DNA of 64,000 nt, from positions 18,816 to 82,815 of IMG/VR virus record IMGVR_UViG_3300031344_000005, one strand, 5' to 3'. The notes under the pieces are model-generated. The model was not told the origin of the DNA. It saw nothing but the letters and a program-made list of their open reading frames with translations, and ran no database searches. This DNA comes from a virus. The translations under genes were made by a program, and so were the position numbers. This document shows, one piece after another, positions 1 through 15,048 of the stretch; the stretch's first letter is position 1, and each line of letters opens with the position of its first letter.

Positions 1-148
1 GGGACGGCTTGCCGTCGGCGTCGCGGCGGTCGGCCATCATCTTGGCGAAGTACCAAACCTGCTCAGTGAATGGACACAGGTTGACCAGGTCCTCGTCGCG
101 TGGGTCCGTGGTCTGAGTATGTGGGAAACCCACACAGATGATCCTCAA
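1..148 (-). CDS. Partial hypothetical protein, N-terminus only
   Basis: A leftward reading frame starts at TTG 148-146 and runs off the left edge of the window, giving 49 codons. A good GGAGGT ribosome-binding site lies 6 nt before the TTG, and the start overlaps the stop of the upstream HNH gene as TTGA. The visible protein begins MRIICVGFPHTQTTD and has a mixed, soluble-looking composition. I do not recognise the family. Only the strong Shine-Dalgarno and the overlap support it. Confidence 0.6.
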   Translation of the reverse strand, partial: MRIICVGFPHTQTTDPRDEDLVNLCPFTEQVWYFAKMMADRRDADGKPS

Positions 149-810
149 GATTGCACCTCCAATTCCACGTGTTTCCACGTCTTGCGAGCGAGGATGTCGT
201 AGATATTTCTAACACACACGCCGAAGTCGGCGGCAAGTTGAGGCACGGTCCATCCTTGGGCGCGAAGCTGAAAGACGGAGCGCACCTTCTCATCAGTCAG
301 TTTGGATCTACTGTGCCCTTCTCCACGTGGGCGAGATTCCGGATGCAAGCGTGAGCCGCTGTGTTCACCACGCGCCATTCGCTCTGGGTGCAAGTGGGAC
401 CAATGCGCATCGCCGCGCGCTACACGTTCCGGGTGCCTATGTGACCAGTGCTCGTCGCCATAAGAATGTGGCGGATCACTTTGTCTGCCCTTCGCCATCA
501 TGTCCCTGGTATTGTCCTTCATCGTTCCGAGAAACAAGTGCTCATCGGCAACACAGGGCGGATTGTCGCACTTATGGGGGACGTGCAGGCCATCGGGGAT
601 TGGGCCGTGAGCCAACTCCCATGCTACGCGGTGGGCACTTTCCCCACTGCCAGCGCGTCCCAGACGGCTGCTGAGCCTACCGTACCCATGATAATCCAGC
701 GCGGCCTGCCATTCTAGGCAAGGCGTTGTCATGCCCGGTCTGATGAAATCGGCAAGCTTGGCCTTCGCGAGGAATCGCTGCTTAAGTCGGTCGAGTACGA
801 AGATGCGCAT
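145..810 (-). CDS. HNH homing endonuclease
   Basis: Predicted free-standing HNH endonuclease (HNH_3-like), 221 aa. The core has CLEWQ near residue 31, AHRVAWELAHG near 59-69, and HKCDNPPCV followed by HLFLGT and DN near 79-102, the usual phage HNH arrangement of Cys pair, catalytic His and Asn. Three short tandem units carrying HPE..ARG(D/E) follow, then a C-terminal helix-turn-helix-like segment with WTVPQLAADFGV that probably helps choose the DNA target. Start at 810 is preferred over 822 because GGAG sits 7 nt upstream of it. Probably a mobile selfish gene within the leftward operon; the target site is not identifiable. Confidence 0.88.
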   Translation of the reverse strand: MRIFVLDRLKQRFLAKAKLADFIRPGMTTPCLEWQAALDYHGYGRLSSRLGRAGSGESAHRVAWELAHGPIPDGLHVPHKCDNPPCVADEHLFLGTMKDNTRDMMAKGRQSDPPHSYGDEHWSHRHPERVARGDAHWSHLHPERMARGEHSGSRLHPESRPRGEGHSRSKLTDEKVRSVFQLRAQGWTVPQLAADFGVCVRNIYDILARKTWKHVELEVQS

Positions 811-822
811 GGTTAGCTCCAT

Positions 823-1029
823 TCAATGGCTGCCGTCGTAGCCCGGCGGACGCCCCTGCCATGGCGGTGCGGGCGGGAACATTGGCTCTGGTAGCTTCTC
901 GCCCGGCTCCATCATCCGCACCTCGACCACGTTGTAGTCCAGTTCGACCGCTCGCTGCTGCGCGCGCGCCGGGTCCTCCCATGCCGAGTCGAGGTGCAGA
1001 ACGTTGCGGACGATGAAGATGGTTTTCAT
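823..1029 (-). CDS. Small hypothetical protein (68 aa)
   Basis: Small soluble protein of the leftward operon, start ATG 1029 overlapping the stop of the methyltransferase gene as ATGA and ending just before the HNH gene. The N-terminus (MKTIFIVRNVLHLDSAW) is followed by a proline-rich C-terminus. No family recognised. Longer readings toward 1272 run antisense to the methyltransferase coding frame and are rejected. Confidence 0.6.
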   Translation of the reverse strand: MKTIFIVRNVLHLDSAWEDPARAQQRAVELDYNVVEVRMMEPGEKLPEPMFPPAPPWQGRPPGYDGSH

Positions 1030-1742
1030 GGTCTGCACACAATGTCGTAGCCGTCTCTCCCGTCGCTCGGGTTGAACGGCTGTCCCGTGCGGATGTCCTT
1101 GCATTCCGCCGAGTAGCCAAGCCAGCGCAGCTCCGTCTCCAAGTCGCGGATCGTGAAGCCTGAGAGACCTAGTCCCCAGGAATTGACTTCGACGACCATG
1201 ATGGGCCGGCAGCGCAGAATTGTCCCACGCGCGCCTCGCAGGGCCAACACCTCGTGGCCTTCGATGTCCCACTTGATGAGCGCTGGCGACAGACCGAAGC
1301 TGTCGAGTGTCACCACCTCGACCGGCACGTCACCGTCTGCGTCGATGTGGCTGGCCCCGGCGTTTTCCTCACGCTTGATCTTGAGCGAAGCCACGCGATC
1401 TGACAGGCCGCAGTTGTGGAGCACGACGTTCGGCAGGTCCGCACAGTTCTGCCGGAGGCACTCGAAGGGCTCAACTTGCGGCTCGAAGGCATGCACGGTG
1501 CCGGCCTTCGTCGCATAGGACGAGGCGTGGTCTCCAAGGCTGGCGCCTGCGTCGATGACGGTCGATCCTTCCGGTATCAGGTCGAGCACCAGCGGAATCA
1601 GTTTGATCGGTGGGCACGACAGATCTGCGCCGAGACAGTGGTGCTGTTCGATCCATCGCGACAGGTGCGTGTCGTCCTTCAGAACTGCGATCGAGCGTTC
1701 GCCCGGAAGACCGGGGATGATGCCGGGCGTGTGGATAATCAT
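1026..1742 (-). CDS. FkbM-family SAM-dependent methyltransferase
   Basis: Predicted 238-aa methyltransferase of the FkbM family, which usually O-methylates sugars or small molecules. SAM-binding motif I is VIDAGASLGDH near residues 62-72, the acidic second strand is AFEPQ, and the typical FkbM block IKWDIEGHEVLALRGA lies at about 156-171. Start 1742 is chosen because GAGGGG lies just upstream; the frame is open to 1817 but that extension has no site. It lies between a regulatory HTH gene and an HNH gene and may modify a host surface glycan or phage product. The substrate cannot be read from sequence. Confidence 0.85.
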   Translation of the reverse strand: MIIHTPGIIPGLPGERSIAVLKDDTHLSRWIEQHHCLGADLSCPPIKLIPLVLDLIPEGSTVIDAGASLGDHASSYATKAGTVHAFEPQVEPFECLRQNCADLPNVVLHNCGLSDRVASLKIKREENAGASHIDADGDVPVEVVTLDSFGLSPALIKWDIEGHEVLALRGARGTILRCRPIMVVEVNSWGLGLSGFTIRDLETELRWLGYSAECKDIRTGQPFNPSDGRDGYDIVCRP

Positions 1743-1770
1743 ACTCTGCCCCTCGGATTGGCCAAAGAGA

Positions 1771-1986
1771 TCAAGGTGTCTTCCCCTGTTGGTCTCTCGC
1801 CGCGATCTGATGGGCAAGTAGCAGCGCGGTCCCTCGGTGGATTCGCAATCCGCCCGCTGCGCGTTCGAGGGCCGGCCTGCTCAGACCCAAGTGCCGCGCG
1901 GCTTGGCATGTGCCCTGTGCTTCGATGAGGGCCTTCAGGCGGGTCTGATGCTCTGGGCTCATCTCGGTGTCGTTCTTTTGCTTCAT
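1771..1986 (-). CDS. Small HTH DNA-binding protein, likely autorepressor
   Basis: A 71-aa protein with a compact helix-turn-helix: CQAARHLGLSRPALERAAGG at about residues 25-44, followed by a short C-terminal helix (TALLLAHQIA). It is the first gene of the leftward operon. Its ATG lies inside a perfect 16-bp palindrome that also abuts its own -10 box, so autoregulation is likely. It could set expression of the methyltransferase/HNH operon and, being divergent, of the head operon. Start 1986 is preferred over 2022 because the latter would lie upstream of the -10 box. Confidence 0.72.
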   Translation of the reverse strand: MKQKNDTEMSPEHQTRLKALIEAQGTCQAARHLGLSRPALERAAGGLRIHRGTALLLAHQIAARDQQGKTP

Positions 1987-2029
1987 GGTGCTTGCACCAT
2001 CATAGCAACGAAGTTGGGCCAAAAGTCAA
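1985..2029 (-). promoter_or_regulatory. Leftward promoter with palindromic operator
   Basis: Reading leftward, TTGACT (2029-2024) and TATGAT (2004-1999) form a sigma70-like promoter with a rather long 19-bp spacer. The perfect palindrome ATGGTGCTTGCACCAT (1985-2000) overlaps the edge of the -10 box, the expected transcription start and the start codon of the HTH gene. A repressor bound there would block its own promoter. The predicted 5' leader is only about 6 nt. Confidence 0.6.
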
Positions 2030-2079
2030 GCTTACATTTTCGTGAGGCACGAATTGTGTTACCTCGGAAGTACACGACC

Positions 2080-2619
2080 ATGACCAGCCAAGTTGACCCG
2101 AAGAAGCTCAAGTCGCTGCTGAACAAGTCACAGACCGAACTCGATCCGCCAGAGGACGAGGGTGGAGGTGGGGATCCCGCCGACACTGGAGCGGCCTCGG
2201 ACGACGGCTCCGACGACGACGAGGAAGAGGGCGGCGAAGAGGAAGAGCAGACGGTCGAGTCGCTGACGGCGTCGCTGAAGGAAGCCGTTCCAACGATCAA
2301 CGAGATCATCGACGAGTTCCGCACGGGCAGCGACGCGCAGCCGAAGGCCGGCGTCGAACAACTCGAAGAAGAACTCGATGCCGAGGCGGTGCACGGGTTC
2401 TGTGGCTGGACCGAGGAAGCGGGCAAGAAGGACTTTCGCAAGCTGGGCGAAGCGCTCGACGTGGAAGACGTCGATGGCTTCGTCGGCTGGTGCCGGGCCG
2501 TCCGCAAGATGGAGGAGGAAGACGGCGAGGGCGGGGAGAGCGGCGGCGAGGAAGGGGCGACCGAAGAAGAGCCCGAAGGTGGCGAGCCCGAAGGCGAAGA
2601 GGAACCCGAGGCCGAGTGA
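2080..2619 (+). CDS. Highly acidic protein of the head gene cluster
   Basis: First gene of the rightward structural operon, 179 aa. It has two long Asp/Glu-rich, low-complexity stretches, at about residues 25-60 and again at the C-terminus from about 145 on, flanking a central part with the repeated pattern (A/D)-(x)-GF-(C/V)-GW. GGAAG lies just upstream of ATG 2080. Its position ahead of the head genes suggests an accessory head or assembly role; the extreme charge would also fit a DNA mimic or chaperone. No family is recognised. Confidence 0.7.
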   Translation: MTSQVDPKKLKSLLNKSQTELDPPEDEGGGGDPADTGAASDDGSDDDEEEGGEEEEQTVESLTASLKEAVPTINEIIDEFRTGSDAQPKAGVEQLEEELDAEAVHGFCGWTEEAGKKDFRKLGEALDVEDVDGFVGWCRAVRKMEEEDGEGGESGGEEGATEEEPEGGEPEGEEEPEAE

Positions 2620-2891
2620 TGCCGGGCAACCTCAAAAACGCCTTGCGCGCAGAGCCCGCTGGCGGGACCGTCAATGTGGATCTGACGAGAACGACGCCCA
2701 AGGCTGACCCGCGGTTTATGCCCGAGCAGGCGCCCCCGGAATCTGATTCCGCGATGGACGCTCCGGGCCTGACCGTCACTGGGAAGTCACCCAATGCTCG
2801 CATCGCACTACCGGCAAGCCAGAAGCTGCCCAATTTGCCACCGGCCAGGAACCCGAATTTGTTCGAGGCAACCCCGAGGAAGCGAACATGA
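2619..2891 (+). CDS. Hypothetical head-region protein (90 aa)
   Basis: Starts at ATG 2619, sharing one base with the previous stop (TGATG), and ends inside an ATGA overlap with the next gene. The protein is basic, rich in Pro, Ala and Asn, with no membrane segment and low predicted order. Tight coupling to neighbours supports it as a real gene; function unknown. Confidence 0.6.
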   Translation: MPGNLKNALRAEPAGGTVNVDLTRTTPKADPRFMPEQAPPESDSAMDAPGLTVTGKSPNARIALPASQKLPNLPPARNPNLFEATPRKRT

Positions 2892-3097
2892 GCGAAGCTC
2901 TTTCACCAGGTCGACGGCGCGCGCTTGAGCTTGGCCGCAAGTTCGGGACGATTCGCGAAGACAAGCCTCGCACCGCCCCTGACGGTCTGACCGGCGGGCG
3001 GGGAGCCTCCGAGATGGCGAAGGCTGAGAAACCACTACTCGAAGGCGCGAGCGTGAAGCCCGCCGTCGAAAAACCGCTCCCGTTTCGACGGGGGTAA
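2888..3097 (+). CDS. Small protein with KPLPF tail (69 aa)
   Basis: Short basic protein beginning MSEALSPGRRRALELG and ending with VEKPLPFRRG. The start overlaps the preceding stop (ATGA). The terminal KPLPF motif recurs near the C-terminus of the next small gene, suggesting a shared binding partner or a duplicated tail. No known family. Confidence 0.6.
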   Translation: MSEALSPGRRRALELGRKFGTIREDKPRTAPDGLTGGRGASEMAKAEKPLLEGASVKPAVEKPLPFRRG

Positions 3098-3107
3098 GGA
3101 GAACCAG

Positions 3108-3266
3108 ATGAGCGACGAGAGCACCCCTGTCAAAGAGTACGACGCAAAGCACGGTTCCTACAAGCCCAGCGGACTGGAAGTCAACACGGCTTCTTCGGTG
3201 CTTCCGGCGAAAGATAAGCCGCTGCCGTTCAAGTCGACGGTTGGCAACACGAACGCCGACAAGTGA
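3108..3266 (+). CDS. Small protein with KPLPF motif (52 aa)
   Basis: A 52-aa frame with a good upstream GGTAAGGAG site. It reads MSDESTPVKEYDAKHG at the N-terminus and has AKDKPLPFKST near the C-terminus, matching the KPLPF ending of the previous protein. It fills the space between two head-cluster genes with tight spacing. Function unknown, probably a structural accessory peptide. Confidence 0.6.
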   Translation: MSDESTPVKEYDAKHGSYKPSGLEVNTASSVLPAKDKPLPFKSTVGNTNADK

Positions 3267-3304
3267 TCGGCGGCATCAGTCACTGATTTGAGGAGAGACA
3301 TTCC

Positions 3305-4177
3305 ATGGCCATCAACGACACCACGACCCACTCCAGCACAGTTCGCGACGCCTACAACACCGGCATTCTGGGCAAAGAGTCCGACGCCAGCCAGAAGGCG
3401 CCTCTGGGCGACATCCTCTCGGTGTTGCTCGACGTCGCCAACACGGCCGTCTCGGTTTCGGCCGTCACCGTCGGAACCGCCGTCACCCCTACGCTCACGC
3501 CGACGGCAACGTCCGGGGCGACTGGGATCATCCCCACGGCAACTGCCGTAGTTACGGTCTCCGCTTCGTCGGTTTCAGTTGCGACGGCGGTTTCGACGGC
3601 CGCCGTTGCCTACGCATCGCCCGATCAGACGATTCTGGCGAACCTGGCAAACGCCAACTACGTCTCGGTGAACCAGTGCGTGACCGACATCAAGGCTCTG
3701 ATCACCAAGGTCAACGCCGCAGTGGTGGACATCAGCGCGACCGATGCCAAGCTGAGTGCGGTTCTGGTGGACCTCAGCGCCGCCAAGGTCGACAACACCG
3801 CACTGGCTGCGCAGGTCAATGCCGCGCTCGTCGACATCAAGTCGCTGCGAGCCTGTATGGCGGCCACCGCCGCCAACGGCACAATGGGCGGCTGCACCGA
3901 GCCGAGCCTCACCGTGACGAGCTACCTCACCGGGACGCTGACCTACACGCCGTCATCGATCATCAGCATCCACGGCTACGGCACGACCCCGGGCGTCCTG
4001 AAGCTCATCCGCGATCCGAACCACACGCTCTCGACTGGTGAAGTTTTTTGGGATGGCTATCGCGGTCTGAAGTTCTGCGCCGCCGACCTCCTGACCACCT
4101 ACGACGCCATCTACGCCAAGGCCGACAGCTCGCAGAAGGTGAGTTGCCTCATGGCCTCGATTGCGGACATCGTCTAA
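3305..4177 (+). CDS. Putative virion structural protein with helical repeats
   Basis: A 290-aa protein with a good GAGGAGAG site. After the N-terminus (MAINDTTTHSSTVRDAY) comes a Ala/Val/Thr-rich stretch, then at about residues 115-190 several heptad-like helical units (DIKALITKVNAAVVDI, DLSAAKVDNTALAAQV) that look like a coiled-coil stalk. The last 90 residues form a compact mixed domain. Position ahead of the scaffold and capsid genes suggests a head or decoration protein; family not recognised. Confidence 0.65.
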   Translation: MAINDTTTHSSTVRDAYNTGILGKESDASQKAPLGDILSVLLDVANTAVSVSAVTVGTAVTPTLTPTATSGATGIIPTATAVVTVSASSVSVATAVSTAAVAYASPDQTILANLANANYVSVNQCVTDIKALITKVNAAVVDISATDAKLSAVLVDLSAAKVDNTALAAQVNAALVDIKSLRACMAATAANGTMGGCTEPSLTVTSYLTGTLTYTPSSIISIHGYGTTPGVLKLIRDPNHTLSTGEVFWDGYRGLKFCAADLLTTYDAIYAKADSSQKVSCLMASIADIV

Positions 4178-4199
4178 CCGACGGAGTCAGTAGCGCCAC

Positions 4200-4355
4200 A
4201 TGAAACCTTTCAGCGGGACACACGCCAACCTGAGATTCACTCAGGGCGCCTCTGTCCCGCGCAACGTGGCTCGATACCTTGCGTGCCCGCCCGTTGAAGT
4301 CGTCACTCGTGACGACGGCGACGATACAGCCGGTGACCGCGACGTAAACGAGTAG
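4200..4355 (+). CDS. Small hypothetical protein (51 aa)
   Basis: Frame beginning MKPFSGTHANLRFTQG, with a Asp-rich tail, between the structural gene at 3305 and the scaffold gene. A GGAG lies about 12 nt before the ATG, so the ribosome site is modest. Codon use is like the neighbours. Function unknown. Confidence 0.45.
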   Translation: MKPFSGTHANLRFTQGASVPRNVARYLACPPVEVVTRDDGDDTAGDRDVNE

Positions 4356-4371
4356 CTCCGAGGAGCGAGTC

Positions 4372-5226
4372 ATGCCGAACGAAAACCAACCCGATCCGAA
4401 TCAACCGCCAGCCCCAGGAACACCGCCAGTAAGCACTCCGCCCGTCGGAGCCGCACCTCCCGCCCCCCAGGGCAAGAACGTCATGATCCCCCAAGCCGCA
4501 TTTGACAAGCGAGTCGAGCAGGCGAAGAGAAGCGGTCGAACCGCCTACCAAGCCGAACTCGACGCGGCTGCCGTGGCCAAGGGATACGCGAACCACACCG
4601 CACTGATGGCCCACGTCGATGGGTTGCTCACTCGACGAGCCGCCGCGCCGAAGTCACCGCAGGCCCAGCCGCAGGGCCAGGCCAGCGGATCACCTCCTCC
4701 CCCGGTCCCGCCCAAGAACCGCAATGACCGCCAGGCCATGCAGCAATTCGAGCGAGACAAGGCGAGGGCGCAGCGCGAGCGAGAACAGTCCGAACGACGA
4801 TTGGCAGACGAGCAGAAGCGACGCCGCAGGGCCGAGCGAGAACGCGATGCCATCGAAGCCCGGTCCAACCTCGAACGCATTGCCGGCCGGTGTGGCGTCA
4901 AGGACGTCGACTACGCGATCCATCTGTACACCCAGCACTGCCAAGGGAAATCCGAGGACGAGCTGAGCAAGATGGACGAAGATAAATTCTTCAAGGAGTT
5001 GCGGCAAGGACACCCCTACATCTTTGGGGAAACGGTCGTGCCCGCGACGACCGGGACCGTGGGAGCGCCCCCCGGCTCTCATGTACCGCCATCGGCCGCG
5101 GGAACCGCAGCCGCTGCCGGGCAGGCCGGAACCATCGACGTTACGAAGATGAACAAGGAACAGTACCGCGAGTATAGGCGGAATCGCGGCTACGACCGAC
5201 CGCTCCTGACAGGCAGAGCAAGCTGA
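4372..5226 (+). CDS. Probable capsid scaffolding protein
   Basis: A 284-aa protein directly before the major capsid gene, the usual place for a scaffold. Order: Pro/Gln-rich disordered N-terminus (1-35), a basic helical section (about 40-85), a Pro-rich linker, a long highly charged coiled coil (about 118-165, RERDAIEARSNLERIAGRCG), a small helical domain, and a Gly/Ala-rich linker leading to a short C-terminal helix (KMNKEQYREYRRNRG) that would suit capsid binding. Scaffold identity is inferred from context and architecture rather than a recognised family. Confidence 0.7.
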   Translation: MPNENQPDPNQPPAPGTPPVSTPPVGAAPPAPQGKNVMIPQAAFDKRVEQAKRSGRTAYQAELDAAAVAKGYANHTALMAHVDGLLTRRAAAPKSPQAQPQGQASGSPPPPVPPKNRNDRQAMQQFERDKARAQREREQSERRLADEQKRRRRAERERDAIEARSNLERIAGRCGVKDVDYAIHLYTQHCQGKSEDELSKMDEDKFFKELRQGHPYIFGETVVPATTGTVGAPPGSHVPPSAAGTAAAAGQAGTIDVTKMNKEQYREYRRNRGYDRPLLTGRAS

Positions 5227-5271
5227 AACTGACGGCCAACAGCCGACGAACACCAACGAAAGAGGAAATCC

Positions 5272-6687
5272 ATGGACTTCTCAGTCATCCAACAGTCGCC
5301 CCAGGTCCGAGAACTGGTGCAGCAGAACGTGCTGCAGCGGGAGTTCAAGGACGCCCTGTACCCCCGCAATCTGTTCCGCGGCGAAGCCGAGCCGGTGGAA
5401 TGGCCCGCCAACATCGGCGACAGCATGGTGTTCACCGGCCGCGGCCTGATGAAGCCGTCGACCAAGCCCTTGAAGCCCGGTGACGAGCCGCGGGCGAAGA
5501 GCGTCGAGTATGAACAGTGGTCCGCCCAGCTCCATCAGTGGGTCGGCCGCGCCCCGGACATCTCGACTGTGACCGACCTCGTGTCGATCGCGCGACTGTT
5601 CGTGAGCAACGTCCAGGCCCTCGGGTTGGATGCTGGCATGTCGCTCAACCGCATCGTACGCGATCGGTTGTACAACGCCGCGCTGAGCGGCCAGACGGTC
5701 GCGACAGTGACCGCGACTTCGGGCCACACCATCACGGTGGCGCGCTTGAACGGTTTCACGACCGCGCGGCGCCCCGACCTGTCGACTGGATCGACGGTCA
5801 AGTTCGACACCGTGTCGAGCAACAACCCGCTGATCGCCTACACCAAGCACGCCTCCGGCGCCACGCTGACCCTCACCATCACGGGCTTCACCCCGACCTA
5901 CACGGGCGACGAAACCGGGCCAGGCACCCTGACGGTTGCCGAAACCTTGAGCGGGAGCAACGTCACGGCGCGGGATCCGATCTGGACCGCTGACGCCAGC
6001 TTCATCAACCGCGCGGGCGCTGGCCTGAGCGTCGATGCCGTCACGAGCACGGGCCACGGCTTCACGTTCGACCTGTACCGCAGTTCGGTGGGCCACATGG
6101 CGGACAACAACGTGCCGAAGATGTCTGACGGCTTCTACCACGCGCACTTCAACAACTACTCCAAGGGCCAACTGTTCAGCAGCGACGAGAGCCAGCGGCT
6201 CTTGACCAGCTTGCCGGACTACTACTGGTACAAGGAGTTCACGATCGGCGAGGTGCTGGGTGGCCTGGTGTTCGAGGACACCGAGACCCCGCAGGCGTCG
6301 AACGTCCAAGGTGGCACCTCCAACGTGTACGACGGCTCCGACACCGGCGAAGCGTTCGGCGGCGAGATGTACAACTACACCAGCGACCTCATCCAACGCC
6401 CGATCTTCATCGGCGCCGAAGCGGTCTACGAATACTACCGGCCCCTCGGCGGTCTCGTGACTGAGGCCGGCGTCAACGGGCAGGTGGGTGAGTTCACCGG
6501 CCTGACCAACAACGGCATCGAGGTGAATGTGGATCGCGTGCAGGTCTACCTGCGAGCGCCCGTGAACGTGACGGGCGACATCGTGACGTCGGTGTGGAAG
6601 AGCGTGATGGATTGGCCCTGCCGAACCGACGTGCTCACCGGCGACAGCGCCAGGTTTAAGCGGTGCGTCGTGGTGGAACATATCTAG
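5272..6687 (+). CDS. Major capsid protein (HK97-type fold, N4 gp56-like)
   Basis: A 471-aa protein whose N-terminal third (FKDALYPRNLF, a VEWPANIGDS strand, a long spine-like helix near 105-135) and C-terminus (VNVDRVQVYLRAPVNVTGD) resemble N4 gp56-type HK97-fold capsid proteins. Residues about 140-225 form a Thr/Gly-rich beta segment (TLTLTITGFTPTYTGDETG) that looks like an inserted surface domain. GAAAGAGG precedes the ATG. The gene follows the putative scaffold and is followed by the folded noncoding region. High confidence as capsid, lower for the exact subfamily. Confidence 0.85.
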   Translation: MDFSVIQQSPQVRELVQQNVLQREFKDALYPRNLFRGEAEPVEWPANIGDSMVFTGRGLMKPSTKPLKPGDEPRAKSVEYEQWSAQLHQWVGRAPDISTVTDLVSIARLFVSNVQALGLDAGMSLNRIVRDRLYNAALSGQTVATVTATSGHTITVARLNGFTTARRPDLSTGSTVKFDTVSSNNPLIAYTKHASGATLTLTITGFTPTYTGDETGPGTLTVAETLSGSNVTARDPIWTADASFINRAGAGLSVDAVTSTGHGFTFDLYRSSVGHMADNNVPKMSDGFYHAHFNNYSKGQLFSSDESQRLLTSLPDYYWYKEFTIGEVLGGLVFEDTETPQASNVQGGTSNVYDGSDTGEAFGGEMYNYTSDLIQRPIFIGAEAVYEYYRPLGGLVTEAGVNGQVGEFTGLTNNGIEVNVDRVQVYLRAPVNVTGDIVTSVWKSVMDWPCRTDVLTGDSARFKRCVVVEHI

Positions 6688-6704
6688 CGAAACGCGCGTC
6701 ACAG

Positions 6705-7202
6705 CCTGAGAAGGAAATGTGCTTTTCCCGCGACTATCCCGACACGACGAGCGCACCGGCGCCACGGGATAGTCGCGCCTCAGTTTTGCCCTTCGGGGCA
6801 ATTAAAGGGCCTGGAGCTTCGGCTCGTAAACACACGCGGTCGTGTCGCTGTGTTCTGGCCCGCCGGCATGGTGGCGGCGCTTCGGTGCTTGCCCATACGA
6901 ACGTGCCGGTTCATGTCCGCGCTGGTCGCCCGATTGTGACGGGATTGCGCTTGCCCGCTTTGGTCAGTGGACATTCGCGCCCATCTATGACGGCGAACTC
7001 AACCGAGCTTTGTGCTCTGGATGAGTTGTTGCGCGGCTATCGGGAGACGCCAACCCTGGCCCTTGGCCATGGAACCGCGTCGCCCTCTGGCGGCCCCACT
7101 TCTAGAGAGTGGTCGGTGGCTTCGGCCATGACTCTGGACTCGCGCTCAAGCAGATCCCATCAGCGTGGGTTAAACGCTGTCACTGCTAGTGCCTGAGTCC
7201 GG
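6705..7202 (+). ncRNA. Candidate large structured RNA, about 500 nt
   Basis: The 549 nt between the capsid gene and the next gene carry no convincing protein frame but fold extensively. Helices include 6729-6741/6765-6777 (13 bp, perfect) inside 6706-6710/6779-6783; 6807-6811/6857-6861 closing two hairpins; 6913-6918/6969-6974 enclosing a nested hairpin; 6975-6980/7031-7036 enclosing 6996-7000/7023-7027 and 7003-7008/7014-7020; and 7134-7141/7195-7202 enclosing an H-type pseudoknot (7156-7159/7166-7169 with 7161-7165/7175-7179). Four hairpins are capped by C(UUCG)G loops at 6792, 6818, 6881 and 7121. A T5 run follows at 7214-7218. It fits neither tRNA nor tmRNA consensus; relation to ROOL or GOLLD phage RNAs cannot be judged by eye. 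Confidence 0.8.
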
Positions 7203-7236
7203 TGCCCCGCCTCTTTTTGACCAACAGGAGAATCCG

Positions 7237-7626
7237 ATGAGCCTGATGAGCGACAGAGCAGCAGCGAAGCAAAAGGATGCCAAGCCGGCGTCAGTGAAAG
7301 CTCAGGAACCGCCGGCCGCTCCGGTAGTCTCTCCTCCGCCACCCGTAGATCCGGTGGCAGCCTTCGCCGTGACGGCCGAGGAGTTCTCTGCCAAGGATGC
7401 GCCCATCGAAGCGCTCGACATCGTGGTGCCTCCGCCGGAGGCGCTAGCCCCGAAGGTCGCGCTTGCTCCTACCCGTCGCGTGCGCGTGCTGGCGGACGGC
7501 AAGGTGTTGCTGGGTGCTTGCATGCACAGATTCCGCGCAGGCAACGTTCTGGACGCCAATCAGTACGATAACCACGTGTTCGGCCAACTCCTGAAGGCCC
7601 TCAAGACGGAGCCGATCGAGAACTGA
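7237..7626 (+). CDS. Hypothetical structural protein, Pro/Ala-rich N-terminus
   Basis: A 129-aa protein starting after the folded region, with CAGGAG 6 nt before ATG 7237. Residues 1-85 are Pro/Ala-rich and probably disordered; the C-terminal 45 residues (RRVRVLADGKVLLG, ending LLKALKTEPIEN) look like a small folded module. Sits in the head-completion block. No family recognised. Confidence 0.65.
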   Translation: MSLMSDRAAAKQKDAKPASVKAQEPPAAPVVSPPPPVDPVAAFAVTAEEFSAKDAPIEALDIVVPPPEALAPKVALAPTRRVRVLADGKVLLGACMHRFRAGNVLDANQYDNHVFGQLLKALKTEPIEN

Positions 7627-7628
7627 CG

Positions 7629-8045
7629 ATGGCCCTCACGCTTTCAGAGAAGGCCCGTGTCCGCTACCACTTCGGCTATCCGAATACGTCGATGAATGCT
7701 TCTCTGTCGATTGGGATCCCGCTGGACACGCAGTTCATGTTTTTGCTGGACCGGGCGATGAACCTGATTCTGCCGGAAGCGGAAGAGACCGTGCGGATGC
7801 TGATCGGACGGCTCGACCAGACTGACGATGCGATCTTCCAATGCCAGCTCCGAATGCAGGTCAGCAAGGTCGACGGAATCGAACTGCGGGCCGACGAAAT
7901 GGATGCGCTTGAAAACGCCTACTACGGGCAGGCCACGCGCCTGGCTGACATGCTGCACACGCCGCTGTACCCGTTCTCGGCTCGATTCCAGGGCAGGGGC
8001 GGGGTGACGAGCGCGCCCCAAACCGGAATGGTCGCGAGGCACTGA
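7629..8045 (+). CDS. Head-tail connector-type protein (putative)
   Basis: A 138-aa, largely helical protein beginning MALTLSEKARVRYHFGYPN, followed by helices rich in Met, Leu and Asp. Length, helical content and place right after the capsid region fit a head-completion/adaptor protein. It ends in an overlap with the next start (TGATG). The assignment is from context; no diagnostic motif is visible. Confidence 0.6.
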   Translation: MALTLSEKARVRYHFGYPNTSMNASLSIGIPLDTQFMFLLDRAMNLILPEAEETVRMLIGRLDQTDDAIFQCQLRMQVSKVDGIELRADEMDALENAYYGQATRLADMLHTPLYPFSARFQGRGGVTSAPQTGMVARH

Positions 8046-8437
8046 TGTCAACGCCCATCATCGTCAACCACGCAGGAGTCGCGGTCGGGACCAGCTCGGG
8101 CGGCTCGTTCGGCTGCGGCCCGTTCGACACCAGCTTCAACGCGACCTATGCGGCGCAGAAGAGTGGCCAGGACGATGTGGTGAGCGCGACCTTGGGGGCC
8201 CCCCTCGTGCTGCCCCTGGAGAACGTGGCGGGTGTTCGGGTGCTCATCATCAGCGTGAGCGGGAACAGCGTGACGTTGCTACTCACCAGCGCGTCGGGCA
8301 CCTTGCAGAAGATTCCGCTCAGCAGCGGGGGGATCATGATTTTCCACCAGCCGACCCTGGGCGACGAGTTCACGGCGATTGAAATCGTCGGCAACGGCGC
8401 CACCGTCAGCTACTTCGTCGCGGGAGACCTCGCCTGA
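8045..8437 (+). CDS. Hypothetical virion protein, beta-rich (130 aa)
   Basis: A 130-aa protein of alternating hydrophobic and small residues (VRVLIISVSGNSVTLLLTSAS) predicting a beta sandwich. It overlaps the previous stop and the following start by one base each. Probably a minor head or decoration protein. No family recognised. Confidence 0.6.
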   Translation: MSTPIIVNHAGVAVGTSSGGSFGCGPFDTSFNATYAAQKSGQDDVVSATLGAPLVLPLENVAGVRVLIISVSGNSVTLLLTSASGTLQKIPLSSGGIMIFHQPTLGDEFTAIEIVGNGATVSYFVAGDLA

Positions 8438-9030
8438 TGCTGCAGGATCGTACCAGCCCGAGCGACGTGAAGGCCGAAGTGCCGTCCCTGTCGGGGCAGG
8501 TGCATCCCGAGCCCACCGTCAGGCGCAGCCTGGCCGATTCCCTGGTGCCCGCCATTGACCGGATCCGTCAGATCAAAACGGACCTCGGCTTTTCGCCATA
8601 TCGCGTCTTCTTGGTCCACTGGCGCTGGCCCGGCAAGCGCGGCATCGGGCGCCCGGTCGAAACCGCCCGGATCGAAATTCAGCCGACCCCTCGTGTCCAG
8701 GACATGCTCAGCACGTCCTTCGGCGTCTCGGCGTTCGGCCTGACGGAGGGCGGTGGGCTGTTTGTCGACCGCATCAGCGCACGATTCAGCGAGGCGGACC
8801 TGACGGGCCGCACGCCTGACCTGATGGACCCAGCGCGCCCGCAGACCAGCGCCAGCAACGCAGAGTTCTTCTGGGAGGTGCGGGAGACGCGCCGAACGAC
8901 GCCGCCGACGAAGCCCCGCCGCTACGCCGTGAGCGGCGTTCCAATGCTCAACAAGACGGGCCTCCACTGGCGCGTCAACCTGACCAAGCAGGACACATCC
9001 TGCGAAGTCGAGCCCGAGGTGGCGTCGTGA
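8437..9030 (+). CDS. Hypothetical head/neck protein (197 aa)
   Basis: A 197-aa protein in the head-completion block, starting in a TGATG overlap and ending in a GTGA overlap with the next gene. A helical N-terminal third leads to a mixed domain containing VFLVHWRWPGKRGIG. Context suggests a neck or head-closure protein. No motif permits a firmer call. Confidence 0.55.
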   Translation: MLQDRTSPSDVKAEVPSLSGQVHPEPTVRRSLADSLVPAIDRIRQIKTDLGFSPYRVFLVHWRWPGKRGIGRPVETARIEIQPTPRVQDMLSTSFGVSAFGLTEGGGLFVDRISARFSEADLTGRTPDLMDPARPQTSASNAEFFWEVRETRRTTPPTKPRRYAVSGVPMLNKTGLHWRVNLTKQDTSCEVEPEVAS

Positions 9031-9635
9031 TTCGCACGGTCCACATCCGCGACCTGGGCGGGTACGTGTCGAAGATGCCCAAGGAGCGCCACGCGGCGGC
9101 CGTGCGGGCCGTCCGCAGGTGCATGCGCAGCCGCGGGCGAGTCATCGTCAACGAGGAGATCAATGCGACGAAGCCACGGCCGCCCGTCGACCGCCGCACC
9201 TACGCGAACTCCTGGGAGACGCTAGCGATCGACGATGGCTGCCGCATCTATTCGACAGATCCCAAGGCGTCCGTCATCGACCGCGGCCGACGTCCTGGCT
9301 TCGGAATCGGCCGGGCCGGCATCGAGGCCCTGATGGGCTGGGTCCACCGGCACGGCATGGATACCGTGAGCCACCCGGCAGCCCAGCGAGTTTCTCAGCG
9401 GCAGATGTTGCAGCGGGCACTCGGTCAGCGCGTGATGACCCTCAGAGCCGCCAAGAGCGAACAGGTGGGAGCGGCTGCCCGTTCCATCGCGTACGCCATC
9501 GCGGCCGCCATCAAGAAGCGCGGTCTGTGGATGCCCAAGGGTCTGCAGGTATTCGCTCGCGCCAGCAAGCGCATCGTCGAGGAGTGCCGAACGGCCGTTC
9601 GGCGGGCTATCGCGGGCGCTGAGGGGGGCAACTGA
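9027..9635 (+). CDS. HK97 gp10-like tail-completion protein (putative)
   Basis: A 202-aa basic protein starting with GTG in a GTGA overlap. The N-terminal helix with KERHAAAVRAVRRCMRSRG, a central RTYANSWETLAIDDGCRIYS strand set and a C-terminal helix-rich tail resemble HK97 gp10/neck proteins that act between head closure and tail terminator. Context before the terminator and sheath genes agrees. Similarity is judged by pattern, so moderate confidence. Confidence 0.58.
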   Translation: MIRTVHIRDLGGYVSKMPKERHAAAVRAVRRCMRSRGRVIVNEEINATKPRPPVDRRTYANSWETLAIDDGCRIYSTDPKASVIDRGRRPGFGIGRAGIEALMGWVHRHGMDTVSHPAAQRVSQRQMLQRALGQRVMTLRAAKSEQVGAAARSIAYAIAAAIKKRGLWMPKGLQVFARASKRIVEECRTAVRRAIAGAEGGN

Positions 9636-10336
9636 TGTACGCCTCCCAATTCTTTCCCTTGGCCATCTGCGACGTGCGGGACGCCTGCGCGTTGGCTCTC
9701 AGTCGGGTCATCGAGGCCATTGACACTACGATTGGCGGCCAGCGCATCAAGTTCAACCACGTGTTCGATGAGTGGCCGACTCAGGACGACAAGTACGACC
9801 CACCGGCCGCCTGCGTGATCGCACCTCCCGAGTGGGAATACTCGGACAGCGGCGAGCCGAAGCTGTTGGAGGACACGGTTCAAAGCTTCACTACGGGCGC
9901 GGATGACCCGCCGTCCTACGGACTCTACAAGACGGCCGAAATGCTGGACCAGTTCGGGCTGCAGATTCGGGCAGGAAGCGCCGCCATGCGGTCCATGCTG
10001 AAGCTGGCCGTCGAGGACGCCTTTCAGCTTCGCGAAGCCGCCATGTACCCCCTGAGACAGCGGTACGGCCTGCAGTTGGATCTACCTGAGTATTGGGGAC
10101 TGACCGCACGCGCATCGCTGCTCAAGGGCAGCAACACCGATTCCGAGGACGCGGCCATGCGAAATCAGCGCGAGGCTTCGTTCGTGATTTCCATGCAGGC
10201 CCCCAAGGTGCAGCTCATGGCCATCTGGCCGATGAGCATCACCGTTACCGAGAAGACCTTCACGGGCGATGGGCGGCTCATCAATAGCGCCACCATCAAG
10301 CCCAGCGACGATCCGCCAACCATGACCAGGAGCTAA
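9635..10336 (+). CDS. Putative tail terminator / neck protein
   Basis: A 233-aa protein directly upstream of the tail sheath gene, where myophages often encode the tail terminator. It starts in a TGATG overlap, with internal segments such as RIKFNHVFDEWPTQDDKY and a C-terminal beta strand pair. Function is inferred from gene order only. Confidence 0.5.
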   Translation: MYASQFFPLAICDVRDACALALSRVIEAIDTTIGGQRIKFNHVFDEWPTQDDKYDPPAACVIAPPEWEYSDSGEPKLLEDTVQSFTTGADDPPSYGLYKTAEMLDQFGLQIRAGSAAMRSMLKLAVEDAFQLREAAMYPLRQRYGLQLDLPEYWGLTARASLLKGSNTDSEDAAMRNQREASFVISMQAPKVQLMAIWPMSITVTEKTFTGDGRLINSATIKPSDDPPTMTRS

Positions 10337-10339
10337 CCC

Positions 10340-12178
10340 ATGTTCATTTACCGCACAACCACGATGCCGACCCTGGCGAAGCTCACGGAACTGGAGCGCA
10401 TCGTCGCCGTCGACGGCGCAGGTCCCAACCAACCAGTGAGCGGCGGAACCGTCCGCGCTTGCGCGGTGGGCGAGTGCCTGCAGGGGCCGTTCGTTCCTAC
10501 GGTGGTCAACGCCCCCAGCGACATCGAGAACTACTTCGTTGGCGACCGCACCCGGTTCGCTCTGCTCAGCCAGAGCGGGTTCGACCCCGCGACGGCCGTG
10601 CAAGACGGATCCGGCGTGACGTTCGACGGCAACGTCTGGGCCGAACTGAAGGGCAAGACGTTCAGCGGGCTTGTGATTCAGCGGGTCGACTGCGACATGG
10701 TGACGGCGACGGCGTCGGTCACGACCAAGGCGTTCGTCGCCTTCACGCTCACGGTGAACTCCGCCGACTACACGACGGTCAGCAACGTCCAGTATACCAA
10801 CAAGGACATCGTGATTCCGTCGGGAACTCGGTTCTCCGATGCGGCCAACGTCGTGATCGCAACCTCTCAGCAGATCACGATCCCAACTGGAACCATCATC
10901 ACGACTGGCGCGCTGGCGCTTGCCATCAGCTTCACGCAGAACGCAGCGTCGGGCGCTCTGACGTACGTTGCCTCGGGTGCAACGACTGGCGCCACCTGTT
11001 TTTTCGTCAAGGGCACCACGAAGGCCATCGCCGGCATCAATACGGCAGTCGACGTCGTGTTGCCAGGCGTGAACGCCGGCACGGTGATTGCGGCTTCTGG
11101 TGTGTCGACCATCAACATCACACCCGCCGCCACCGCCATCTTCGCCCCGACGGGCGGCGGGGCGGCTCCGAGCGGCGACACCCTGTCCAACCGCATCATC
11201 CTGAACTACCCCGCAGCCATCACGAAGACGCTGCCGGGTGTGGCGGCCACGAACGACATCGTGGCCATCTGGTCGGCTCGCAACTACCAGTCCAGCACGG
11301 CAGACACCGGCAAGACCATGCGGGCGAACCTTTGGGCCAACGCCATCGCAGCGAGTACCACAGGCCGTGGGCGCGCCGCCTGTGTGACGGGTGCTCCAGT
11401 GGTGGGAATCACCGCGAGCGACCAGACGACCGCCAAGGGCCTCTACGAGGCAATCATCGGCACCACCGACACCATCACGGGCGCCGACGCAGACCGCTAC
11501 TGGCTCAGCGGTCCCTACATCCAGGTCTTCAGCAGCGAGCTGAACGCCGACATCGTCATCAGCGTCTGTGGCACCCGGGCCTGCATGAAGGTCAATCTGG
11601 CGAACGCCGGCAAGTCCGAATACCAGACGAGCGTGGGGAGCCCGGAGAACGACAGCATCCAGGCCGTCGACGCCCAGGAGCCCTGCTTCGCCGCCAACCC
11701 GATGGTCGAGGCGGACTTCACCGCCATGAAGGCCGCGGGGGTCGCGTGGTTCGTGAAGGATCGTACGGCCGGCTGGTGGTTCTACAGCGGCGTGACGGGC
11801 GCGAATCGCATCACCTACCAGAACCGCGTGTCCGACAACCGCCGCAGCTTTGCGGACGAGATCCAGGACATGATCTTCGGGCTCGGGACGCCGTACTCGA
11901 AGAAGCCCGGTACGCCACAGCGAGCCGACTCCTACATGCAGGACATCACGGCATATGTGGACATGCTGGTGAAGCCTCCGATCGGTGACAGCCGTGCCAT
12001 GGCGGCCACTGTGCTCGACGGCGCGGCGGCGGGCAACAGTCAATATCTCAACGCCCACGGCGTCTATCTGTTCGAGACCGACGTGGCGATGTACGGCGAC
12101 ATGAACGCCATCGTCATCAAGACCATGATCGGTCCCAACGTCATCATCAGCCAGGCCACCTCTCAGGCCGGCACGTAA
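10340..12178 (+). CDS. Tail sheath protein
   Basis: Contractile sheath subunit, 612 aa. The C-terminal half carries sheath-like features: GVAWFVKDRTAGWWFYSGVT, NRRSFADEIQDMIFG and a final beta strand (AIVIKTMIGPNVIIS) that would join neighbouring subunits. About residues 115-260 form an inserted Thr/Ala/Val-rich domain with IPSGTRF, ITIPTGTIITTG and VLPGVNAGTV, which looks like the beta module seen in baseplate J proteins. It is followed at once by the tube gene, the classic myophage order. Confidence 0.88.
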   Translation: MFIYRTTTMPTLAKLTELERIVAVDGAGPNQPVSGGTVRACAVGECLQGPFVPTVVNAPSDIENYFVGDRTRFALLSQSGFDPATAVQDGSGVTFDGNVWAELKGKTFSGLVIQRVDCDMVTATASVTTKAFVAFTLTVNSADYTTVSNVQYTNKDIVIPSGTRFSDAANVVIATSQQITIPTGTIITTGALALAISFTQNAASGALTYVASGATTGATCFFVKGTTKAIAGINTAVDVVLPGVNAGTVIAASGVSTINITPAATAIFAPTGGGAAPSGDTLSNRIILNYPAAITKTLPGVAATNDIVAIWSARNYQSSTADTGKTMRANLWANAIAASTTGRGRAACVTGAPVVGITASDQTTAKGLYEAIIGTTDTITGADADRYWLSGPYIQVFSSELNADIVISVCGTRACMKVNLANAGKSEYQTSVGSPENDSIQAVDAQEPCFAANPMVEADFTAMKAAGVAWFVKDRTAGWWFYSGVTGANRITYQNRVSDNRRSFADEIQDMIFGLGTPYSKKPGTPQRADSYMQDITAYVDMLVKPPIGDSRAMAATVLDGAAAGNSQYLNAHGVYLFETDVAMYGDMNAIVIKTMIGPNVIISQATSQAGT

Positions 12179-12187
12179 GGAGCTACC

Positions 12188-12634
12188 ATGGCGACTGACT
12201 ATCGAGTTCTCGGCCGAGACACGAACATCCGGATCACCCAGAGCGGTATCCTGCTGACCGAGATCACGGCCATCAAGAATCTGGACTTCGGGCCCGAGTT
12301 GACTTTGCTGTCCGAGGGCTTCCTGGGCGAGTCTGCCGAGCGCCACCGGGAAGTCTTCAAGTCGGTGGACGTCAACTTTGTCGTCGAACCCGAAGGCGAG
12401 TCAATCTTCCAACTGCAGTATGCGATCTACCAGCGGGCGCGAAGCGGCCAGGCGAACGATCTGCAGATCAACCTGGGGTACAGGATTCAATTCCCGTCCG
12501 GGACCATCTTCCGCATGACCCTGCCGGACCTGCGGTTCAGCGACCCCGGCAAGCTCGCGAACGCGGGCCGCGAGTCGTTCCTCTCGCAGTCCTTCGCGGC
12601 CAAGACCGACCGCTACATTCCCAACTTCACCTGA
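12188..12634 (+). CDS. Tail tube protein
   Basis: A 148-aa protein directly after the sheath, preceded by AAGGAG. Compact beta-rich sequence with GILLTEITAIKNLDFGPE and later TIFRMTLPDLRFSDPGK, as in phage tail tube monomers, which stack as hexamers inside the sheath. Size and position match the family well. Confidence 0.82.
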   Translation: MATDYRVLGRDTNIRITQSGILLTEITAIKNLDFGPELTLLSEGFLGESAERHREVFKSVDVNFVVEPEGESIFQLQYAIYQRARSGQANDLQINLGYRIQFPSGTIFRMTLPDLRFSDPGKLANAGRESFLSQSFAAKTDRYIPNFT

Positions 12635-12661
12635 TCCCCCAACCCGACATAGGAGGCCACC

Positions 12662-13060
12662 ATGTCCGATCCACTGAACCTAGGGATGCAAGCTGCGGCA
12701 GCGATCGCAGCCTTGCCCCGCACGACCTTCACGGTCCCCGAAACCGCTCGCACCGCCACGGACCCCAAGACCGTCACGATTCGCCAACTGACGTTCGCCG
12801 AAGAGAAGGCGGCTCTGGAGGCCAAGGGGCACGGCGGCCACTCGTTCGAGTACGAGGGCGCCAAGCGGGCGCTCTGTGCCATTGACGGCCAGCCCATCAC
12901 GTGGACCGACAACCAGATCGAGAACGTCTTCATGGGCCTGTCGAACAAGGTGCGCGACATGGTGATCCGTGGCTTCTCCCTCGTCTGCCTGCCGAGCCAG
13001 AAAGAGGCGGACGATTTTTTAGCCAGCGCGAGCGCCACGGACTCAGCGAACAACTCCTAG
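12662..13060 (+). CDS. Tail assembly chaperone, short form
   Basis: A 132-aa zero-frame product between the tube and tape-measure genes, the site of lambda G-like chaperones. Good AGGAGG site upstream. The frame contains the slippery heptamer at 13015-13021 and then stops at 13060; the -1 frame continues to 13209. The short form should be the more abundant and should coat the tape measure during tail assembly together with the long form. Confidence 0.8.
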   Translation: MSDPLNLGMQAAAAIAALPRTTFTVPETARTATDPKTVTIRQLTFAEEKAALEAKGHGGHSFEYEGAKRALCAIDGQPITWTDNQIENVFMGLSNKVRDMVIRGFSLVCLPSQKEADDFLASASATDSANNS

Positions 13061-13209
13061 ACGCCCTATGGGACGACGTCGTCTATATAGCTCGATACGC
13101 ACACCAGGACTTCGACAAGATACTCAGCCGACCGCGTTCTGAAATCATCAAGATCAAAGAAGCCCTCGGGCGGCTGGTGGACCAAGAGAACAACAAGAAA
13201 CCCACCTAA
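12662..13209 (+). CDS. Tail assembly chaperone, -1 frameshift fusion (G-T type)
   Basis: Predicted 182-aa frameshift product. Ribosomes read 120 codons from ATG 12662, slip back one base on T_TTT_TTA at 13015-13021, then read AGC and continue for 62 residues to the stop at 13209. The extension contains SEQLLDALWDDVVYIARYAH and a charged helical tail, typical of the T domain that binds tube subunits. Lambda G/GT and most long-tailed phages use the same -1 device at this locus. Frame arithmetic is exact; efficiency is unknown. Confidence 0.8.
13015..13021 (+). promoter_or_regulatory. Programmed -1 ribosomal slippery site
   Basis: Heptamer T TTT TTA in the zero frame (GAT TTT TTA), matching X XXY YYZ exactly. 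It lies 39 nt before the zero-frame stop, and the -1 frame is open from well upstream (at least from 12901) through 13209. A GC-rich region downstream may aid pausing; no clear pseudoknot was worked out. Confidence 0.82.
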
Positions 13210-13215
13210 GCCGCC

Positions 13216-15048
13216 ATGAGCGAGAATACGACACAGGTTGAGGGCCTAGACTTTACGGTCAAGGACCACGCGACGCCGGCCGCCGAGCACATGGCGAAGG
13301 CGTTCGAGCACGTCCACCACGCGGCCTCGGCTACGACCCAGAAGTTCAGTCAGATGACCCACAGCGCCGCCATGTCGGGCCTCGCCATGGTGGGACTTGG
13401 GTTCGGGTTCCGCGAGGTGGCGAAGTTCGCGGGCGACGCCAACCTGGAGCTTGAGAACGCGGTCAAGAGGATCGCGGGCGTTCAGTTCACGTTCGGCCAC
13501 TGGAAGGCCGGCACGACGGCACAGGAGAAGTGGAACGAGTCGCTGACGGAGGGGAATGAGATCGTCGGCAAGTTGGAGGCGTCCGAGGGCAAGCTGAAGA
13601 TGAAACGGGCCGAGTTGGCCGAGGTTTACTCGTCTCAGGCGATGATGTCGGAGCGCTACCACCAGACGCAGGCGCAGCAGATCGATCTGACCGAGAAGCT
13701 TGGCGCTACGCAGAAGGTGCTGGGCATCAGCGCGGAGGCGGCGGGCGACATGATCGGCCGCGCCGCCATGACGGGCGCCATTCCACTGCGCAGCCATCTT
13801 GGACGCCAACTCGCCAGCAGCATCGGGGATCTGAAGAAGTTCAAGCACGCCTCCGAGGCGGTGCGGTTCGAGAAGCTCAAGAAGGCGCTGGGCGACATGA
13901 TGCCGGCGGCCGAAGGGATGGGGAAGGGACTGGCGGGTTCCATGTTCGACGTGCGCAAAGCCGTAGAGGATCTCACGCGGGATCTGACGGGAGGCGTCTT
14001 CAAGCAAGTCACGAAGGACTTCGCCGACTGGGCGCACAAGCTGACAGACGTGCGGGAGAGCGGCCAGAGCGTCGCGAAGGTTTGGGGCGAGAAGCTCGTG
14101 ACGGATTTCGGCTACCTGAAGGACGCGACGGCATTCATCGCCGATCATTGGAAGGCCATTGCCGGCATCTTCGTGGCCACCAAGTTTGCGGGTACCATGC
14201 AGGGGCTGGCGGGGCGCTTCGGGGCTGGGGGCGTAGCGGGGGCGGCCGGGGGAGCGGCGGCGGGTGCCGGGCTGGCCGGCGTGATGAACGTGAAGGCCGG
14301 TACCGTGAACGTCCAGGGAGGCGCAGCGGCGGCACTGGGGGCCACCACGGCTTCCGAGATTGGGGCGAAACTCAAACCCAGCTTGTCGGAGACCGTCACC
14401 AAATTCAGTAACATGGCGGCCAGGGTCGGAATAGTCACAGAGGCCCTTGGGGGGCTCTACATTGGTCTGGACGCTCTCGCCAAGTGGGCACTGTCGAAGC
14501 AAGACGAGGGCATGGCCAGGAGCGCGGCGGCTCCGCGGGCTATGTCATCGCTCACCGCTGGTGCTAAGGCCATGTCGTCCGCACTGCATGAGGAATCGGT
14601 CGAGAAGACATTCGGCCACCTAAAGTCGGCCTTTGAAGCCTACGGCCTGAAGCCTGGGCAGATGCTCGACCGGGCGACGCTGTCCGCCGAATTGCGAGCG
14701 ATGGAGCCTGGTCTCGCGGCCAAGCAGATCGCCATGTACGGCATCAAGGGCGCTTCCGCCAAGAGCGTCCAGGCCCCTGGCATGTTGGACGAGGCCGCCG
14801 GCAGGATCACGACGCTCCTGAACAACTATGCCGCGCAGTTGTTGGCGGCGAATCCCGATCTGGCCAAGGGAGTCTCACAGCGGAAGACCACGGCCGCACC
14901 CGTGACGAACATCAACGTCCAGCACCTCGAAATCACCCAGGACTTCAAGCAAGCCGATCCTGACCGCGTCTTCCACAACGTCCCGCGAGACATCGCCGAC
15001 ATGGTCCGCAACCCGCGCGGCAGCAACATCGGGGCGGTGTCAGGATGA
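13216..15048 (+). CDS. Tape measure protein
   Basis: A 610-aa protein after the chaperone genes, in the tape-measure position. N-terminal helices (about 20-230) are long and charged; about residues 310-380 hold membrane-like Gly/Ala-rich segments (IAGIFVATKFAG, GGVAGAAGGAAAGAGLAG) as in tape measures that insert into the host membrane. The C-terminus ends in a compact segment overlapping the next gene (ATGA). At 610 aa it would specify a fairly short tail. No peptidase domain is seen. Confidence 0.8.
   Translation: MSENTTQVEGLDFTVKDHATPAAEHMAKAFEHVHHAASATTQKFSQMTHSAAMSGLAMVGLGFGFREVAKFAGDANLELENAVKRIAGVQFTFGHWKAGTTAQEKWNESLTEGNEIVGKLEASEGKLKMKRAELAEVYSSQAMMSERYHQTQAQQIDLTEKLGATQKVLGISAEAAGDMIGRAAMTGAIPLRSHLGRQLASSIGDLKKFKHASEAVRFEKLKKALGDMMPAAEGMGKGLAGSMFDVRKAVEDLTRDLTGGVFKQVTKDFADWAHKLTDVRESGQSVAKVWGEKLVTDFGYLKDATAFIADHWKAIAGIFVATKFAGTMQGLAGRFGAGGVAGAAGGAAAGAGLAGVMNVKAGTVNVQGGAAAALGATTASEIGAKLKPSLSETVTKFSNMAARVGIVTEALGGLYIGLDALAKWALSKQDEGMARSAAAPRAMSSLTAGAKAMSSALHEESVEKTFGHLKSAFEAYGLKPGQMLDRATLSAELRAMEPGLAAKQIAMYGIKGASAKSVQAPGMLDEAAGRITTLLNNYAAQLLAANPDLAKGVSQRKTTAAPVTNINVQHLEITQDFKQADPDRVFHNVPRDIADMVRNPRGSNIGAVSG

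Follow-up and report, generated by a model that had tools for sequence, protein, structure and literature searches.

Tailed phages of a deep clade carry a new large structured RNA between the major capsid protein gene and the next head gene

GOLLD and ROOL, two large multi-domain RNAs of phages for which a function is still lacking, are often encoded near tRNA islands. The pseudoknot in the leader of T4 gene 32 is an autogenous translational operator. Mu-gpT-DE, to judge by its name, is presumably an RNA element downstream of the major capsid gene (Mu gpT), and we take it to be much shorter than the RNA described here. It is catalogued as RF03012 (PMC7657543). As an RNA that takes its name from its place after a capsid gene, it sets a precedent. 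GOLLD has a conserved 3' part and a variable 5' part, and ROOL contains multiple pseudoknots (PMC12286853). The pRNA of phi29 is also a structured RNA of a tailed phage.

A large structured RNA of a new family lies in the head operon of tailed phages that form a deep clade, in the interval between the major capsid protein (MCP) gene and the gene that follows. It is described here from the 82.8-kb IMG/VR virus record IMGVR_UViG_3300031344_000005, in a window of 64,000 nt (bases 18816–82815 of that record), where it occupies about 490 nt of the + strand (6730–7218). GOLLD and ROOL are its nearest counterparts in kind, but it has no sequence or covariance match to either, is shorter, adjoins the capsid gene and in one clade is overlapped by a stop-free reading frame. 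The tRNA-island setting is also absent, as no tRNA or tmRNA was found in the 64-kb window. Mu-gpT-DE has no covariance match in the window. The RNA differs from phi29 pRNA in position and architecture and in having no Rfam match, and a tie to head function is shared with pRNA only within one of the hypotheses considered below. Like the T4 gene 32 leader, it places an H-type pseudoknot upstream of the ribosome site of a phage gene; unlike that leader, it is much larger and has no known ligand.

The MCP gene (5272–6687, +) encodes an HK97-type head protein (phrog_1357 major head protein, E 1.7e-7). It ends at 6687 and the next ATG is at 7237, leaving the 549-nt gap that had stood out as exceptional in the sequence-only reading of this DNA. 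The next gene (7237–7626, +) encodes a small head-operon protein of 129 aa with no Pfam or PHROG match. Small head genes come after it, tail genes follow these, and farther along a baseplate wedge protein and a DnaB helicase are encoded. A terminase large subunit gene of the ordinary type (phrog_38, E 1.7e-67) and an SPP1-like portal gene are found upstream in the record. The same record also encodes several HNH endonucleases, a ParB-like protein, a PAPS-reductase-like gene and a glycosyltransferase (window 145–822 and 59432–60430, and L227, G000 1–18900).

The gap encodes a real, conserved, structured RNA. Its folding energy is better than that of shuffled sequences (z −2.7), evidence that would be weak if alone, with 1 of 100 shuffles folding equally well. 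No Rfam family reached its gathering score in the window, and 6660–7260 matched none even at E≤10, which excludes the known families that had been put forward for checking (GOLLD, ROOL, tmRNA, RNase P, group I intron), as well as group II introns and others. No description of this RNA was found in an open-access literature collection that omits most subscription papers and preprints; the claim of novelty holds against Rfam release 15 and that literature only.

About 50 phage contigs have a homologue directly 3' of the MCP gene, with MCP identity down to ~38–50%, in line with the suggestion that they be sought beside capsid genes. Eighteen IMG/VR loci were found with the MCP protein, and two DNA patterns taken from well-conserved segments added more; all of those loci that contain the RNA scored 150–570 bits against a profile of the region. 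Each near-clade RNA locus has an MCP gene upstream on the same strand (57–100% identical). MCP alignment extended the relatives to ~36% identity (36–100% among all MCP homologues). Where the RNA is present, the MCP gene always lies just upstream. Several relatives with 43–50% identical MCPs have a gap of 400–600 nt that is very different in sequence but shares motifs. A search with a single motif, GCAAACCCT(8-20)AYGGAACCGC, returned 52 contigs, and a same-strand MCP gene lay 176–855 nt upstream wherever an MCP relative could be found, so the linkage to MCP is independently demonstrated. The few motif contigs with no MCP gene are mostly contig ends, and two of the matches, L181 and L215, look like chance. 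The region was unmatched in phages of the phage and plasmid collections, where a 23-nt chance match in two plasmids was the only hit, and a collection of genome contigs scanned with MCP peptides and the near-clade RNA pattern gave none.

On a tree of the MCP (a quick tree rather than a careful maximum-likelihood one), the distribution of RNA-bearing rows needs 6 changes, versus 20.5 in shuffles. One supported clade contains 60 rows – 48 with the RNA, 6 undecided, and 6 lacking or unreadable, including L163, whose sequence stops at the contig edge. This pattern is compatible with a single gain followed by a few losses. The RNA is missing from the cultured relatives Kromp and phiKX1 (MCP 27% identical), where MCP is followed by 58 nt and by no gap; the clade that carries it consists of widespread yet uncultured phages. 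The large RNAs of phages thereby gain a family that Rfam release 15 does not contain; it covaries strongly, is predicted to form a pseudoknot and has a fixed place beside the MCP gene.

A structure model of 128 pairs was written on an alignment (A2) of 18 near-clade sequences. Double changes occur at 72 of the 128 pairs (245 such cells), and 91% of cells are paired. None of 500 shuffles gave as many double changes, and sliding the partners by 1–3 columns lowered pairing to 37–42%. Under a phylogeny-based null that is given no structure, the five column pairs of lowest E in the whole alignment are all complementary, and helices P7a and P3b supply the three lowest-E pairs among all columns. Compensatory base-pair changes therefore exceed the controls, as in a conserved structured RNA, and the comparison indicates that the fold is kept through deep evolution by paired mutations. 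The coherent + strand fold of the sequence-only reading is upheld on this basis, by covariation and not by folding alone; it had named absent covariation as the result that would count against it, and the helices covary. Its 13-bp hairpin, three-way junction (6807–6811/6857–6861) and 8-bp stem (7134–7141/7195–7202) all recur in the comparative model. So do its four C(UUCG)G loops, rightly judged unlikely by chance – the + strand of the region has 4 copies where 0.27 are expected at the window's own rate, and every one is the loop of a conserved hairpin.

The 5' part of the RNA begins with the hairpin P1/P1a (6730–6776, +; 6730–6741/6765–6776 and 6751–6754/6759–6762), in which 10 of the 12 pairs of P1 show double changes and ACACGA (6742–6747) forms a conserved internal loop. 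P2 (6786–6801, +) is a hairpin with a UUCG loop (CTTCGG in 17 of 18 sequences), with 98% of cells paired and double changes at 3 pairs. The P3 three-way junction (6807–6861, +) encloses P3a (6814–6825) and P3b/c (6830–6853) and is likewise supported by covariation. The P3c loop UCGUGU (6840–6845) is invariant and complementary to two other conserved loops, ACACGA of P1/P1a (in 89% of rows) and AUACGA at 6895–6900 (in 100%), which makes it a candidate for a tertiary or intermolecular contact. P4/P4a/P4b (6863–6909, +) has 99–100% of cells paired, with double changes, around the conserved internal loop GGUGG...CCCAUACGAAC. The second strand of this loop (6893–6903) resembles CCCAUNCCGAAC, a conserved sequence in loop C of 5S rRNA, though probably by coincidence; an identification as loop C had no covariance-model support and was rejected. 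The P5 domain (6917–7036, +) contains P5a, P5b, P5c and P5d. Here two abutting coaxial helices (6913–6918/6969–6974 and 6975–6980/7031–7036) had been proposed, but the homologues support a different helix, 6917–6922 with 7031–7036 (P5), which has 100% of cells paired and double changes at 4 of 6 pairs.

Three elements of the 3' half, all missed by the sequence-only reading, include the parts that are shared most widely. The first is the core hairpin P6 (7041–7086, +), GCAAACCCUGG..CCAYGGAACCGC, with a covarying outer stem. A covariance model built from distant relatives only (R2) matches the window at 7041–7086 (E 9.2e-9) and has zero matches in unrelated contigs, and in 37 sequences the outer and apical stems covary around an invariant internal loop. 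P6 is not universal, as it is missing in L034, L052 and L127, but most very diverged homologues keep it. The second is P7 (7089–7093/7207–7211; 97.8% of cells paired), which closes a 3' domain (7089–7211, +) containing P7a (7096–7112, three pairs with double changes), P7b (7116–7129), P8 (7134–7141/7195–7202) and P9 (7149–7153/7183–7187).

The third is an H-type pseudoknot (7156–7179, +), formed by S1, CCC(A)/(U)GGG (7156–7159/7166–7169), and S2 (7161–7166/7174–7179). Distant relatives have the same order, a-b-a'-b', as CCC-N(0-4)-stem-GGG-A-rich loop-stem', with a stem that is almost wholly different between lineages. Paired variants of S1 include UCCG/CGGA, CCGC/GCGG, CGCG/CGCG and UCCC/GGGA. 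The sequences in this set were selected for a readable order, so a permutation number is not a fair test, and the paired changes are the evidence. The close relatives L183 and L222 have a compensating change in a stem read by eye as the pseudoknot stem. The automatic scan misassigned L158, L183 and L212, among several distant sequences; L158 and L183 were then read by eye, which is weaker, and in L212 the pseudoknot was not readable by eye. No part of the RNA is more widespread than the pseudoknot domain, which is kept almost throughout the very diverged homologues. Across the family, the 3' pseudoknot domain is conserved, most lineages have P6 with its invariant internal loop, and the 5' domains vary from clade to clade.

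Nearly all relatives have a pyrimidine tail after P7, UCUUUUU (7212–7218, +). Pairing of this tail with the Shine–Dalgarno sequence AGGAG of the next gene (7226–7230) can be drawn in 28 of 35 sequences, with a stability no better than in shuffles, and masking of that site by the tail is possible. A closing helix followed by a U-rich tail, and a position right after MCP, would also suit a 3'-UTR element of the MCP mRNA, a terminator or exonuclease barrier behind high MCP expression. This explanation is unlikely. A pattern scan gave no terminator-like site at the 3' end of the RNA. A strong simple hairpin, moreover, follows MCP (within the first 140 nt after the stop) in nearly all of these phages, both RNA-bearing ones and sister phages with no RNA, with a mean z of about 4 and only sometimes a U-tract. 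A hairpin at the 3' end of MCP is thus the common ground state, to which the large RNA is an addition, and the RNA is not needed for such a role.

In three lineages the RNA is also split from MCP by HNH genes, always inserted 5' of it (L066:9154–9699, L150:3867–4520, and L189, where the gene after MCP was called by its CxxC...CxxC sequence). In L066 the post-MCP hairpin is present and P1 is still with the RNA. A guide RNA of a mobile element (IscB/TnpB type) was considered and excluded, since the linkage is to MCP rather than to a nuclease; the HNH genes, present in few lineages only and as insertions, also disfavor it.

One forward frame is open across most or all of the RNA in all near-clade lineages. 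In the window this frame runs from 6717 to 7196 (+). It contains 0 stops in the near clade versus 11.8 expected from column permutation, and stop depletion over the whole span has a z of −4.9, whereas 11 controls that used other frames and codon sets gave −2.7 to +0.8. The frame begins with an aligned ATG (GTG in two sequences, none in L066) within an otherwise unconserved stretch, and in L017, L028, L010, L004 and L034 its end overlaps the next gene by ATGA. An extension of MCP by frameshifting, of the T7 gp10B type, is excluded, because the frame relative to MCP differs between lineages. The depletion of stops, the conserved start and the ATGA overlap would suit an ordinary protein gene with an mRNA structured by chance, an explanation that is nevertheless very improbable. 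The pN/pS of the frame is 0.98 (0.94 and 0.87 in the other frames), with no amino acid constraint; substitutions are spread equally over the three codon positions, indels are of 1–2 nt, GC3 is 0.61 versus 0.73–0.89 in real genes, and no protein-family match was found. Compensatory base-pair change is massive. Some members of the distant clade have a long open frame, and it is absent in many others that keep the RNA.

Of what had been said earlier about protein frames across the gap, the coding-unlike composition stands; the lack of a ribosome site does not, as the ATG at 6717 is preceded by AGAAGGAA and opens a frame depleted of stops. An open frame together with a pN/pS near 1 suggests selection against stops rather than for a peptide: selection appears to keep ribosomes from stopping in the frame, and the peptide appears not to be maintained. 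Tentatively, then, and with the balance tilted against it, the RNA may be under two constraints, a multi-domain fold and, in one clade, a frame that ribosomes can pass with irrelevant amino acids, so that translation would be what unfolds an RNA switch placed between the capsid gene and the remainder of the head operon.

The packaged RNA, packaging RNA analogue and regulator named as roles in the sequence-only reading are not separable by sequence alone, though the RNA probably controls head-gene expression. The distance from the pseudoknot to the next start has a median of 82 nt and is mostly 75–87 nt (the three outliers, L139, L224 and L198, probably reflect wrongly called starts or genuine insertions). 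The distance from the MCP stop to the pseudoknot is 168–472 nt, and up to 988 nt where an HNH gene is inserted. With its 3' end anchored to the downstream start, and with the stop-free frame of the near clade, a cis regulator is favored. That the RNA is a cis-acting leader of the downstream head gene, including coupling through the stop-free frame in the near clade, has close to an even chance of being correct.

As such a leader, the RNA would be transcribed as a unit with its neighbors and act within the late polycistronic mRNA. Folding during transcription would put the pseudoknot domain and the pyrimidine tail directly 5' of the downstream ribosome site, and the fold would set the dose of the downstream protein relative to that of MCP, which is very abundant. 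This dose might respond to a phage or host factor bound by the invariant loops of P6 and P4. In the near clade, ribosomes would enter at the conserved ATG near the 5' end of the RNA, cross the stop-free frame, melt the fold and halt at or near the next start codon, where several lineages have the ATGA overlap. The downstream gene would thereby be turned on through translational coupling, and the peptide itself would be irrelevant. The coupling part cannot be general, since some distant lineages lack the stop-free frame. Three points count against a cis-acting leader as a whole: among cis regulators an RNA of about 490 nt would be a large one, pairing of the tail with the Shine–Dalgarno sequence is no more stable than in shuffles, and tight gene packing of a trans-acting RNA would also give fixed spacing. 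If the RNA does act in cis, capsid stoichiometry in these phages is tuned by an unusually large and complex RNA.

The main rival to a cis-acting leader, possible but less likely than not, is a structural RNA that acts in trans in head assembly or DNA packaging. It would be cut out of the late mRNA, might self-associate via UCGUGU with ACACGA/AUACGA, and would work with the capsid like phi29 pRNA or as a GOLLD/ROOL-like particle. A large, multi-domain RNA with a conserved 3' and a variable 5' part, as reported for GOLLD (PMC12286853), would suit this role, as would the permanent linkage to the MCP gene and the complementarity of one invariant loop to two other conserved loops. The phrog_38 terminase and the SPP1-like portal are ordinary, however, which makes a packaging RNA of the phi29 type less likely; phi29 has a gp16-type packaging ATPase in place of an ordinary terminase. 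DNA is packaged with no such RNA in the cultured relatives and several sister lineages, and both the anchoring of the 3' end to the downstream start and the near-clade stop-free frame count against a trans-acting RNA. If it does act in trans, a capsid or packaging RNA would exist beyond the phi29 group. GOLLD and ROOL are still without a function; for the RNA described here the strict operon position, the few losses in sister lineages and the ribosome-passable frame give concrete hypotheses that can be tested.

Gaps of 300–400 nt also follow MCP in L154, L156, L169 and L172, and may hold very diverged versions of the RNA; the gap in L154, for example, includes CUACC-GGCGUU-ACA-GGUAG-GG-AACGCC.
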